25,887 nt of DNA from a virus: positions 1-25,887 of IMG/VR virus record IMGVR_UViG_3300022748_000040; one strand, given 5' to 3'. Positions 3,136 through 7,177 of this stretch are shown piece after piece. The notes under the pieces were generated by a model that was not told the origin of the DNA, did no database searches, and was given only the letters and a program-made list of their open reading frames with translations. The position numbers and the translations under genes are program-made. Every line of letters begins with the position of its first letter. Within the stretch, counting starts at the first letter, position 1.

Positions 3136-4722
3136 ATGAAATTTTGGCCATTCGGCAAAAAGGGCGACCAGCCCAAGAAGGCTGGCAAACGCATGTTCGG
3201 CGGCGCGACGTTCAACCGCTTGACCAACGACTGGAACGCCAGCATCGGCACCAGCCAGGACAGCGAAATTCGCAGCAGCTTGCGCGTGTTGCGCAACCGA
3301 ACCCGCCAGCTGGCGCGTGACAACGACTGGGTGAAGAACGCACTGCGCGCGATCCAGAACAACGTGATCGGCACTGGCGTGAACATGCAAATGCAGGTCA
3401 AGATGACCCGCCAGCGCAACGGCAAGGTGATGAACCAGGCCGTGAACGAAGCCATCGAAAACGCCTGGGCACAGTGGTGCAAGGCGCAGAACTGCCACAC
3501 CGCTGGCCTGCTGAATTTCAGCGACATCGAGCGCTTGCTGATCACATCGGCTGCCGAAAACGGCGAAGTGCTGGTGCGCATGGTGCGTGGCACTGCGTTC
3601 GGCACGTCACCCGTGCCGCTGGCGCTGGAAGTGATCGAATCCGACCAGCTGATGGACGAGCGCAACGGCACTGCCGACAATGGCAACATCATCCGCATGG
3701 GTGTCGAGAAGAACGAATGGGGCCGTCCGGTCGCATACTGGTTTTACCCGTACCATCCAGGCGATTACCTTTTCAAAACGGTCGAACTGTCGAAGTACAA
3801 GCGCGTCGACGCCGACGAGATCATCCACCTTTACAAGCATGAACGCCCAGGCCAGACCCGTGGCGTGCCGTGGTTCGCGTCTGCGCTGAAGCGCATGCAC
3901 CAGGTGGCCGGTTTCGAAGAAGCCGAAGTCGTGGCCGCGCGCGCCAGTGCGTCGATCATGGGTTTCATCCAGACGCCCGACGGCGAACTGCAAGACGACG
4001 GTGTGCAGGACAACCAGCGCGTTTCGGATTTCAGCCCAGGCAAGATCGAAGCGCTTGGCCCTGGCGAGACATTCAAGGAATTCGTGCCGAACCGTCCTGG
4101 CGGCAATTACGACCCGTTCGTGCGCGCCCAGCTGCGTGCCGTGGCCGCTGGCGTGGGTGTTTCGTATGAGACACTGAGCAAGGACTATTCGCAGTCGAAC
4201 TACAGCAGCAGCCGACTGGCCTTGTTGGACGACCGCGACAACTGGCGTTCACTGCAAGCCTGGATGATCCAGAATTTCCACCAGCGCGTTTTCGAGGAAT
4301 GGCTGGACATGGCCGTTTTGTCTGGCGCGTTGGACCTGCCAGGCTATGAGATCAACCCCGACGCCTACCGCGCTGTGCGCTGGATGCCGCGCGGCTGGTC
4401 GTGGGTGGACCCCGCGAAAGAAGTGGCCGCTTACAAAGACGCGGTGCGCTGCGGTTTTATGACCCAGTCCGAAGTGATCGCCCAGTCTGGCGGCGACATC
4501 GAGGAAGTGCTCGAGCAACGTCGGCGCGAAGTCGAAATGGCCGAAGGCATGGGCCTGGTGTTCGACACCGACACGGCGCAGGTCGACGACAAGGGGCAGC
4601 TGCAGGCAACTGTGGCGCCTGCTGTCGCAGCCGAAGAAGCTGCGCCTGGTGACGCAACCGACGACGCAGCAGCAGCGCCAGCCGAAGACGAAAGTGCCGA
4701 CGCATCATCGGATGCCACCTAA
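3136..4722 (+). CDS. Portal protein (lambda gpB family)
   Basis: The 528-residue protein matches the lambda-family portal in length (gpB 533) and character: an N-terminal basic segment, then RSSLRVLRNRTRQLARDNDW and VKNALRAIQNNVIGTGVNMQ, which are hallmark portal sequences, and RGVPWFASALKRMHQVAGF in the stem/wing region. The dodecameric ring forms the DNA channel at the capsid vertex and docks the terminase. The last ~45 residues are Ala/Asp/Glu-rich and probably disordered; lambda gpB is trimmed terminally during maturation, so this tail could be removed as well. A good RBS (AAGGGG) precedes ATG 3136. It is followed by a 54-nt gap containing a promoter. Confidence 0.95.
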   Translation: MKFWPFGKKGDQPKKAGKRMFGGATFNRLTNDWNASIGTSQDSEIRSSLRVLRNRTRQLARDNDWVKNALRAIQNNVIGTGVNMQMQVKMTRQRNGKVMNQAVNEAIENAWAQWCKAQNCHTAGLLNFSDIERLLITSAAENGEVLVRMVRGTAFGTSPVPLALEVIESDQLMDERNGTADNGNIIRMGVEKNEWGRPVAYWFYPYHPGDYLFKTVELSKYKRVDADEIIHLYKHERPGQTRGVPWFASALKRMHQVAGFEEAEVVAARASASIMGFIQTPDGELQDDGVQDNQRVSDFSPGKIEALGPGETFKEFVPNRPGGNYDPFVRAQLRAVAAGVGVSYETLSKDYSQSNYSSSRLALLDDRDNWRSLQAWMIQNFHQRVFEEWLDMAVLSGALDLPGYEINPDAYRAVRWMPRGWSWVDPAKEVAAYKDAVRCGFMTQSEVIAQSGGDIEEVLEQRRREVEMAEGMGLVFDTDTAQVDDKGQLQATVAPAVAAEEAAPGDATDDAAAAPAEDESADASSDAT

Positions 4723-4738
4723 GTTCACGGCTTACAAT

Positions 4739-4767
4739 TTGACCAGTTGATTCACTGACCTGATAAT
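4739..4767 (+). promoter_or_regulatory. Sigma70-like promoter for the Dps-like gene
   Basis: TTGACC (4739-4744) is 5/6 to the -35 consensus and GATAAT (4762-4767) is 5/6 to the -10 consensus, with an ideal 17-nt spacer. A start site 6-8 nt after the -10 box would fall at about 4773-4775, only 2-4 nt before the ATG at 4777, so the transcript would be near-leaderless. No Shine-Dalgarno sequence is present in the gap. It is the best promoter match noticed in the window, and it lies in one of the few gaps of the late operon. Confidence 0.7.
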
Positions 4768-4776
4768 CCGCGCCAT

Positions 4777-5163
4777 ATGGAAGCTATTGCAAAACTAATC
4801 ATCACGCTGATGCACGCAGGCACGGCAGCCCATGTGCTGCACCTGCAGTGCCAGGGTGTCGGCAGCTTCGCGCGCCACAAAGCGCTGGATGATTTCTACA
4901 AAGGCATCATCGACAAGGCCGACAGCATCGCCGAAACGTGGCAGGGCCGCAATCGACAGATCATCGTCGGCTATCCTGATGGCTATGTGAACCCGCCACA
5001 AGACGGCAGCAAAGAAGCGGTGCTGGAATTCCTGGCCGCACTGCTGGCGTTCGTGGACGAAACCCGCACCGAAGTCGACCAGCGTTCTGAAATCCAGAAC
5101 CTGATCGACGAAGCGACTTCGTTCATCGACGACACGATTTACTTCATCGAACAGCTACAATAA
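4777..5163 (+). CDS. Dps-like (ferritin superfamily) mini-ferritin, phage-encoded
   Basis: The 128-residue protein has four predicted helices and no signal peptide. The first two helices carry H22, H34, D38, D49 and E53. This spacing (12, 4, 11, 4) is exactly that of the Dps ferroxidase centre (E. coli Dps H51, H63, D67, D78, E82). G27, F31 and Y41 also sit where Dps has conserved Gly, Phe and Tyr. Helices C and D follow (SKEAVLEFLAALLAFVDETR and the segment ending DDTIYFIEQLQ). It lacks the Lys-rich N-terminal DNA-binding tail of Dps and has a shorter BC connection (YPDGYVNPPQDG). Expected activity is Fe(II) oxidation with peroxide and iron storage, if it forms a dodecamer. It resembles a widespread phage protein family that I recall as DUF5856, unverified. 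It lies between portal and protease-capsid, with its own promoter, and ends 4 nt before the next start. Confidence 0.7.
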   Translation: MEAIAKLIITLMHAGTAAHVLHLQCQGVGSFARHKALDDFYKGIIDKADSIAETWQGRNRQIIVGYPDGYVNPPQDGSKEAVLEFLAALLAFVDETRTEVDQRSEIQNLIDEATSFIDDTIYFIEQLQ

Positions 5164-5167
5164 GCCC

Positions 5168-7177
5168 ATGACAAAACAAGCACACGCAATGCCGTGGCAG
5201 GCAAAACCTGTCGAAGCCACGCCTGAAGCCAAGCGCGAAGTGGAGTTCACCGAGGTGGACGGCCAGCTGCGCTTTAAGCTGCCGCAGCTGGTGCGCGCGA
5301 TGTCCGAAGGCGACCTGGCGGTCGACCAGGACACCCGCACGCTGTCGTTCAGCTTCAGCAGCGAATACCCCGTCGAACGCTGGTTCGGCAACGAAGTGCT
5401 GTCGCACGCCGCTGGCGCTGCCGACTTGTCGCGCTTGAACGATGGCGCCCCGCTGCTGTTCAACCACAACATGGACGACATCATCGGCGTGATCGAGAAA
5501 GCCAGCATCGACACGAAGACGAAGCGCGGCATGTGTACCGTGCGTTTCGCGAACACGCCCCAGGCCGACGAGTGCATGGGCATGGTGAACGACAAGATCA
5601 TGCGGAACGTGTCGTTCGGCTACCGCGTGAACGAAATGGACATCACCGACGCAAAATCGGACATCCCCACATATACGGCGACCAGTTGGACGCCTTACGA
5701 AATTTCGCTGGTTACAGTGCCAGCCGACCCGTCCATCGGTGTCGGTCGGTCTGTGACTGCGGAAGAACGCGACGTACTTGTACGTCGTGATCACCAACCC
5801 GCTGCTGCCGCAGCAAATCCTCCAGAGGTCACAATGACGCAAGAAAACACTGCGGCTGCACCAGCCGTTGACATCAAACTCGTGCAGGGCGAGGCTATTG
5901 CAGCCGAGCGCGCACGCATCGCAACCATCGACGCCTTGGGCAAAAAGTTCGGCAACGAAGACCTGGCACGCAGCTTGGTCGAAGGTGGCCGTTCTATCGA
6001 CGAAGCCCGCGCCGCTTTCTTGGACAAGATCGCCGACGCAAAGCGCACCCCTGTCACCGAAGGCGCATCCGATCTGCCTTTGACTGACAAGGAAAAGCAA
6101 GAGTACAGCCTGGTTCGCGCCATCCGCGCCCAAGTGACTGGCAACTGGAAAGATGCCGGTTTCGAGCGTGCATGTTCCGAAGCCATCGCCAAGCGCAGCG
6201 GCAAAGACACCGCCGGTTTCTTCATGCCAATGAACATCAGCATGCGAAACGCATCGTCTGGCGCCTACGCTGTCGGTACAGCCGGTTCTGGCACTACTGG
6301 CGGCACCTTGGTGGCCACCAACTTGTTGGCTTCCGAGTTCATCGAAGTGTTGCGCAACAAGGCCCGCGTGGTTCAGTTGGGCGCCCGCATGTTGTCCGGC
6401 TTGGTCGGCAACGTGGACATCCCACGTCAAACCAGCGCCACCACCACCTACTGGGTGTCGGAAGGTGCAGACGTGACTGAAGCCGAAGCAGCCTTCGACA
6501 AACTCAGCTTGTCGCCCAAGACTGTTGGCGCACGCAGCCAGATGACCCGCAACATGATGATGCAGTCGACACCGGACATCGAAATGATCGTTCGCAGCGA
6601 CTTGGCAGCACAGTTGGCCTTGGCCATCGACTTGGCAGCTATCGCAGGCACTGGTTCAAACGGTCAGCCCACTGGCATTTTGAACACCAGCGGCATCGGT
6701 TCTGTGGCTGGCGGCACCAACGGTGCAGCCATCACCATTGACCACCTGATCGACTTGGAAACCCAAGTGACCACAGCCAACGCGGACGAAGGCAACCTGG
6801 CCTACTTGTCGAACAGCAAAGTCGTCGGCGCCTTGAAGAAACTCAAGTCGACCACCGGCCAGTACCTGTGGACCGACTACCCAGGCGGCCAGCGTTCTGG
6901 CACCCCTGGCGAGATCAACGGCTACACCTTCGGTCGTTCGAACCAAGTGTCTAGCACATTGACAAAGGGCACCGCCTCCGGCGTCGCGTCTGCTGTCTTG
7001 TTCGGCAACTGGTCTGAATTGATCATCGGCGAGTGGGGCGTTTTGGAAGTCCTGCCTAACCCATACGGTTCTGGCTACAACAACGGCAGCGTGGACATCC
7101 GCGCCTTGCAGTCTGTTGACATGGGCTTGCGCCACGCCAAGTCGTTCTCTGCAATGACTGACGCATTGACTGCCTAA
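5168..7177 (+). CDS. Fused prohead protease (S78) and HK97-fold major capsid protein
   Basis: Residues ~25-195 form an HK97-type prohead protease with the expected catalytic triad candidates: H100 in LLFNHNMDD, S149 in RNVSFGYRV and E178 in TPYEISLVTVPADP. Residues 196-222 are a linker. Residues 223-669 are a major capsid protein: a helical delta/scaffold domain (~235-350), then a capsid body beginning near 360, with LVATNLLASEFIEVLRNKAR in the N-arm region and NPYGSGYNNGSVDIRALQSV near the end. The protease would cleave the scaffold domain after assembly. The ORF begins 4 nt after the Dps-like gene with no good SD, suggesting coupling. An internal in-frame ATG (5834) with its own SD could yield unfused capsid protein. 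Such fusions are known in other proteobacterial phages. Confidence 0.93.
   Translation: MTKQAHAMPWQAKPVEATPEAKREVEFTEVDGQLRFKLPQLVRAMSEGDLAVDQDTRTLSFSFSSEYPVERWFGNEVLSHAAGAADLSRLNDGAPLLFNHNMDDIIGVIEKASIDTKTKRGMCTVRFANTPQADECMGMVNDKIMRNVSFGYRVNEMDITDAKSDIPTYTATSWTPYEISLVTVPADPSIGVGRSVTAEERDVLVRRDHQPAAAAANPPEVTMTQENTAAAPAVDIKLVQGEAIAAERARIATIDALGKKFGNEDLARSLVEGGRSIDEARAAFLDKIADAKRTPVTEGASDLPLTDKEKQEYSLVRAIRAQVTGNWKDAGFERACSEAIAKRSGKDTAGFFMPMNISMRNASSGAYAVGTAGSGTTGGTLVATNLLASEFIEVLRNKARVVQLGARMLSGLVGNVDIPRQTSATTTYWVSEGADVTEAEAAFDKLSLSPKTVGARSQMTRNMMMQSTPDIEMIVRSDLAAQLALAIDLAAIAGTGSNGQPTGILNTSGIGSVAGGTNGAAITIDHLIDLETQVTTANADEGNLAYLSNSKVVGALKKLKSTTGQYLWTDYPGGQRSGTPGEINGYTFGRSNQVSSTLTKGTASGVASAVLFGNWSELIIGEWGVLEVLPNPYGSGYNNGSVDIRALQSVDMGLRHAKSFSAMTDALTA
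5770..5787 (+). repeat. Perfect inverted repeat (hairpin) in the protease-capsid linker
   Basis: CGACGTAC (5770-5777), two bases, then GTACGTCG (5780-5787) form an 8-bp perfect stem. It lies 46 nt upstream of the internal capsid start codon, within linker codons that are under little protein constraint. It may be a structure influencing ribosome passage or RNA processing; no T-run follows, so it is not an intrinsic terminator. Confidence 0.5.
5824..5836 (+). promoter_or_regulatory. Internal Shine-Dalgarno and in-frame start for the major capsid protein
   Basis: AGAGG (5824-5828), a 5-nt gap and ATG (5834-5836) are in frame with the protease-capsid ORF (residue 223). The signal is better than that of the full-length start at 5168. 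Initiation here would make a 447-residue capsid precursor (MTQENTAAAPAVDIK...), close to the size of a normal HK97-type capsid protein with its delta domain, allowing far more capsid protein than protease to be made. Confidence 0.6.

Follow-up and report, generated by a model that had tools for sequence, protein, structure and literature searches.

The gene at 4777..5163 (+ strand) of a 25,887-bp IMG/VR virus record (the window, meaning the whole stretch of DNA analysed) encodes a 128-residue protein of the DUF5856 family, to which T4 RI.-1 also belongs. Its predicted fold, read together with four residues that never vary among its relatives, identifies it as a divergent phage mini-ferritin-like protein and not a classical Dps. 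We assign a probability of about 60% to the reading that this is a phage-specific protein whose oligomer oxidises and holds Fe(II) and so spares phage DNA. The original prediction, of a Dps-like mini-ferritin with the five Dps ligands, was right in kind, and too strong both on the five ligands and on membership of Dps.

The open reading frame is real and exactly as claimed (ATG start, 128 residues), and it does lie within a head module. This module is of lambda type, with a terminase large subunit gene, a lambda-family portal gene upstream (3136..4722, +; Pfam Phage_portal_2, E 2.4e-108; PHROG_21) and, 4 nt downstream, a gene for an S78 prohead protease fused to an HK97-type capsid protein (5168..7177, +; assigned by Pfam and PHROG_617). 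An integrase is also encoded in the window, which makes a temperate phage probable. Over the 10.5 kb compared, a 37.9-kb sister contig shows 100% identity to the window, and a search of it for a further ferritin gene returned the DUF5856 gene as sole match. The gap between the portal gene and the DUF5856 gene measures 54 nt and contains a sigma-70-like site, TTGACC-17-GATAAT (4739..4767, +; 10/12 match), 9 nt before the ATG; the chance of such a site in shuffled gaps is 0.0025, a figure judged post hoc. No Shine–Dalgarno sequence is visible in the gap ahead of the ATG. This arrangement of letters suggests that the gene may have its own promoter and a near-leaderless message.

Family membership is clear. 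The link to DUF5856, mentioned in the original prediction, is borne out by the Pfam profile (PF19174, E 1.3e-16, 61.8 bits against a cut-off of 34.6), and the protein also matches PHROG_858 (E 2.5e-19), which is labelled 'starvation-inducible transcriptional regulator'; both families are matched by each of the 94 sequences in a diverse alignment. Scores against established ferritin profiles fall below threshold, at 18.1 bits for PF00210 Ferritin (gathering cut-off 24.5, E 0.0027) and 11.9 bits for the NCBIfam Dps equivalog NF006975 (cut-off 114). Phages carry DUF5856 very often, its T4-like branch alone being matched by more than 1,400 phage records. In cellular genomes it is rare: a restricted pattern gave 4 loci across 84,980 bacterial and archaeal genomes, and, in a separate count, 3 of 199 genomes of one bacterial family were positive. 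Each alignment search matched more than 560 viral loci, a sample that is biased towards certain clades because relatives were gathered with narrow alignments (alignment A2 also being biased towards D38). In the literature searched, the name DUF5856 is absent and biochemical tests of any member were not found.

AlphaFold2 predicts a confident four-helix bundle for the 128-residue protein (mean pLDDT 95.2; helices 2–23, 30–59, 79–97 and 104–126), antiparallel over the whole chain as in ferritin-like folds. Dps chains lead a Foldseek search of the PDB (E 2.6e-3, probability 1.00) and account for nearly all of the best 50 matches; VIA-align, whose best 50 rows are likewise almost all Dps, superimposes the model on MsDps2 with a Z of 14.9 and an RMSD of 2.5 Å over 127 residues. 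Helical bundles reach Z of approximately 13–14 through a common arrangement alone, and the uniform list of Dps matches therefore weighs more than the top score. A divergent member with a short AB loop (L101) is predicted to have the same fold (pLDDT 94.7, Z 14.0). These predictions support the compact, Dps-like four-helix layout first proposed from the letters. Two features of Dps are absent from the model. There is no helix between residues 60 and 78 (nor a counterpart in the L101 model), where Dps has a BC helix that contributes to its two-fold interface, and there is no Lys/Arg-rich terminal tail, a DNA-binding element that only some Dps possess. The tail had been correctly called missing: helix A begins at residue 2, helix D runs to residue 126 and the pI is 4.6.

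Two variations on the domain were seen elsewhere. Several long phage proteins named as prohead proteases (A0A6J7XDU5, A0A6J7WPK9 and A0A6J7WIS1) hold a stretch with this predicted fold, hinting at protease–ferritin fusions in other phages. Open reading frames from L039, L040, L056, L059, L080 and L257 carry an additional N-terminal stretch with a common WYWGSKGPF-like motif ahead of the ferritin-like domain, which may be a small added domain or the product of a wrongly chosen upstream start.

Conservation was counted over 65 relatives, dereplicated at 70% identity. Six residues are invariant (65/65): H22 in helix A (codon 4840..4842), H34, D49 and E53 in helix B (codons 4876..4878, 4921..4923 and 4933..4935), L37 and G57. 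With D38 (codon 4888..4890; all codons given here are on the + strand), the two histidines, D49 and E53 make up the Dps ligand set His-His-Asp/Glu-Asp-Glu in the window protein, at spacings of 12 (H22–H34), 4 (H34–D38), 11 (D38–D49) and 4 (D49–E53). The same four spacings occur in a true cellular Dps from a Microvirga genome, and the ligand positions are in register with HpNAP; the exact Dps spacing on which the original prediction was built holds good. As a family trait the five-ligand set does not stand, since position 38 varies (G 26, Q 11, N 11, D 9, E 4 and others among the 65), leaving four invariant ligands. The separation of the two histidines varies as well, being 9 in 54 relatives, 12 in 10 and 13 in 1. 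Asp or Glu at position 38 is combined with the long spacing in the window protein alone among the 65, and it happens to be the most Dps-like of the set in its loop and fifth ligand. Of the other positions singled out earlier, Y41 is indeed conserved (64/65), and G27 belongs to the loop insertion seen in a minority of relatives, not to a position common to the family. A chance motif was considered and is ruled out by the invariance of H22, H34, D49 and E53. Conservation extends, at approximately 97%, to H19, N108, D111 and Y122, with Asp present at position 111 (codon 5107..5109, helix D) in 63/65 relatives. The near-invariant helix D residues D111, N108 and Y122 fall outside the Dps ligand set and may belong to a pore or to a second metal site.

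Searching the PDB with the DUF5856 family profile retrieves HpNAP (E 0.0015), whose motif falls in register. Profile–profile comparisons with 19 alphaproteobacterial Dps and with one host Dps brought part of the motif into register, but their scores did not rise above that of a shuffled control; homology to Dps is therefore not established by sequence alone. (Dps loci were selected separately, because bacterioferritins made up most of the PF00210 loci first drawn from host-type genomes.) The case thus rests on fold and invariance, not on sequence similarity. Membership of Dps proper fails, because the BC helix is absent and the PF00210 cut-off is missed; a classical Dps is further contradicted by the variation of D38 and of the histidine spacing within the family and by the lack of a Lys-rich tail. 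Metal binding does not follow from a predicted fold, and as there is no BC helix in the model, the oligomer and the geometry of its site may differ from those of Dps.

The place of the gene between portal and protease–capsid had been described as abnormal for lambda. It is indeed unusual there, and it is recurrent in DUF5856: a portal gene lies directly upstream in 13/60 dereplicated loci (a pattern-based sample with clade bias), and the adjoining portals or connectors span four PHROG families (21, 156, 332 and 1216). Mapping this state onto the protein tree gives 8 changes, at least 3 of them forced by well-supported branches. Portal adjacency recurs in at least three lineages, which rules out a reading of the position as unique. 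In the same sample, outside the window, 9 of the 12 portal-adjacent genes start −4 to +2 nt from the portal stop, compared with 10/47 genes within 4 nt when the upstream neighbour is another gene. For many relatives, the surrounding genes are of replication type (RusA, HNH). In one clade (L010, L038, L040, L045, L056 and L058), the next gene belongs to a related family of approximately 148 residues, whose member in phage P19250A is annotated as holin.

Related head modules define the gene as an accessory insert, because they lack it between portal and capsid. In Mica, S-LBS1 and VP882, the portal and capsid genes abut with no DUF5856 gene between them. In a prophage-like contig of a Phenylobacterium MAG (L259), the portal and capsid genes are approximately 55 nt apart with nothing between, and the DUF5856 gene has moved two genes downstream, right after a homologue of the head–tail attachment gene (L259:5055-7610). 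One further locus (L020) keeps the gene order of the window and another (L260) has other genes between portal and DUF5856 gene. In this phage type, then, the insert stays in the head region.

T4 rI.-1 (MobD.6), a member of both DUF5856 and PHROG_858, keeps H22, H34, D49, E53, G57 and D111. What is reported of rI.-1 function in T4, as summarised in a review (PMC6832632), bears only on lysis inhibition: the gene shares an operon with the antiholin gene rI, and its over-expression slightly delays the collapse of lysis inhibition. In some laboratory stocks of T4, rI.-1 is frameshifted (PMC8573959), and the gene is therefore dispensable under laboratory conditions. Gp108 of the Klebsiella T4-like phage VMC03 matches DUF5856 at E 5.2e-34; it was detected with 26 and 27 spectra when virions of two phages, purified on CsCl, were analysed, and is one of 40 proteins that the authors list as likely components of the virion (PMC13119998). 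This relative makes packaging, one of the roles first suggested for the window protein, a live possibility. The virion detection could be contamination, and a dense, iron-loaded ferritin could co-band in CsCl. Gp015, the family homologue in RaK2, is not named among the structural proteins of that phage in the text consulted.

The T4 data invite an alternative in which the protein is an accessory of lysis, modulating holin/antiholin timing as RI.-1 would, with the fold as a mere scaffold. In T4 and its relatives the gene stays beside rI, and in P19250A it abuts a holin gene, a downstream neighbour cluster common to ten loci. However, the gene lies beside a portal gene, not lysis genes, in the window and 12 other loci, and RaK2 retains its homologue although T holin and RI are absent (PMC3622015). 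A lysis role alone also leaves unexplained why the invariant residues coincide with Dps-type ligand positions, and we consider this alternative unlikely.

The tight coupling that recurs with portal genes from four families, the relative found in purified virions and the lack of the fifth ligand in most relatives could instead point to a redox-inert structural or head-assembly factor, a bundle with zinc or no metal that sits at the portal or inside the capsid. Against this, related head modules do without the gene (Mica, S-LBS1 and VP882) or displace it (L259), so it is not needed for head assembly, and the RusA/HNH neighbourhoods of many relatives are of replication type; such a factor seems to us quite improbable. 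We give least credence, as a far-fetched option, to a decoy that co-assembles with host Dps and stops condensation of the host nucleoid. An acidic, Dps-like fold without DNA-binding tails would suit it, the host of a related prophage encodes its own Dps, and host dps is induced early in one phage infection (PMC7354516). Yet identity to Dps in structural alignments is mostly 9–20%, and the BC interface differs.

We therefore return to the mini-ferritin-like reading as the preferred one. Its subunits would pair in the fashion of Dps, forming a metal site between them to which one subunit gives its two histidines and the neighbouring subunit its Asp/Glu, and the assembly could be a shell or a smaller oligomer. 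Bacterial Dps traps iron and protects DNA. The phage protein, whether made alongside the late head genes or driven by its own promoter, would oxidise Fe(II) with peroxide or oxygen and sequester it late in infection, with less Fenton chemistry around phage DNA, both replicating and packaged, as the outcome. In some lineages it follows the portal closely in translation and may be carried in the virion. For the window phage, it is oligomerisation, iron binding and chemistry, DNA protection and packaging that we infer. A wider version, in which many unrelated tailed phages encode a portal-cotranslated, virion-packaged mini-ferritin that binds iron and guards packaged or freshly injected DNA, is more tentative and on balance doubtful; proof of it would best be sought with T4 RI.-1.

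Relative to the literature searched, it is new to tie DUF5856 and T4 RI.-1 to a mini-ferritin fold with four invariant ligands, and so is the recurrent coupling of the family to portal genes. One of the commonest unexplained phage families thereby acquires a concrete structural and chemical hypothesis. Because rI.-1 belongs to DUF5856, phage handling of iron and peroxide, and the notion of a capsid-borne ferritin, become testable in the best-known laboratory phage.

Set beside Dps and other mini-ferritins (E. coli Dps, MsDps2 and HpNAP), the window protein shares the predicted full-chain four-helix fold (Z up to 14.9) and the His, His, Asp and Glu in register, to which it adds D38 and the exact spacing; it differs from them in its missing BC helix and Lys-rich tail, its shorter chain and its score below the PF00210 cut-off, and DUF5856 as a whole differs in that the fifth ligand is not conserved. 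The labels that PHROG and RefSeq attach to the present family already suggest a Dps-like annotation. Dps encoded by phages have been described earlier, for Gratiaviridae and for phages of Lactobacillus (PMC8008677, PMC6669764). Those proteins are likewise phage-encoded members of the ferritin superfamily proposed to act against oxidative stress, but their authors call them Dps or DNA-binding ferritin-like proteins, and the Lactobacillus phage genes lie near DNA metabolism genes, unlike the window gene. Within DUF5856, VMC03 gp108 differs from the window protein in having been detected in purified virions. T4 RI.-1 differs in its short AB loop, its 23% identity and a gene placed beside the antiholin gene rI and not a portal gene, but it belongs to the same Pfam and PHROG families as the window protein and has H22, H34, D49, E53, G57 and D111 in common with it.
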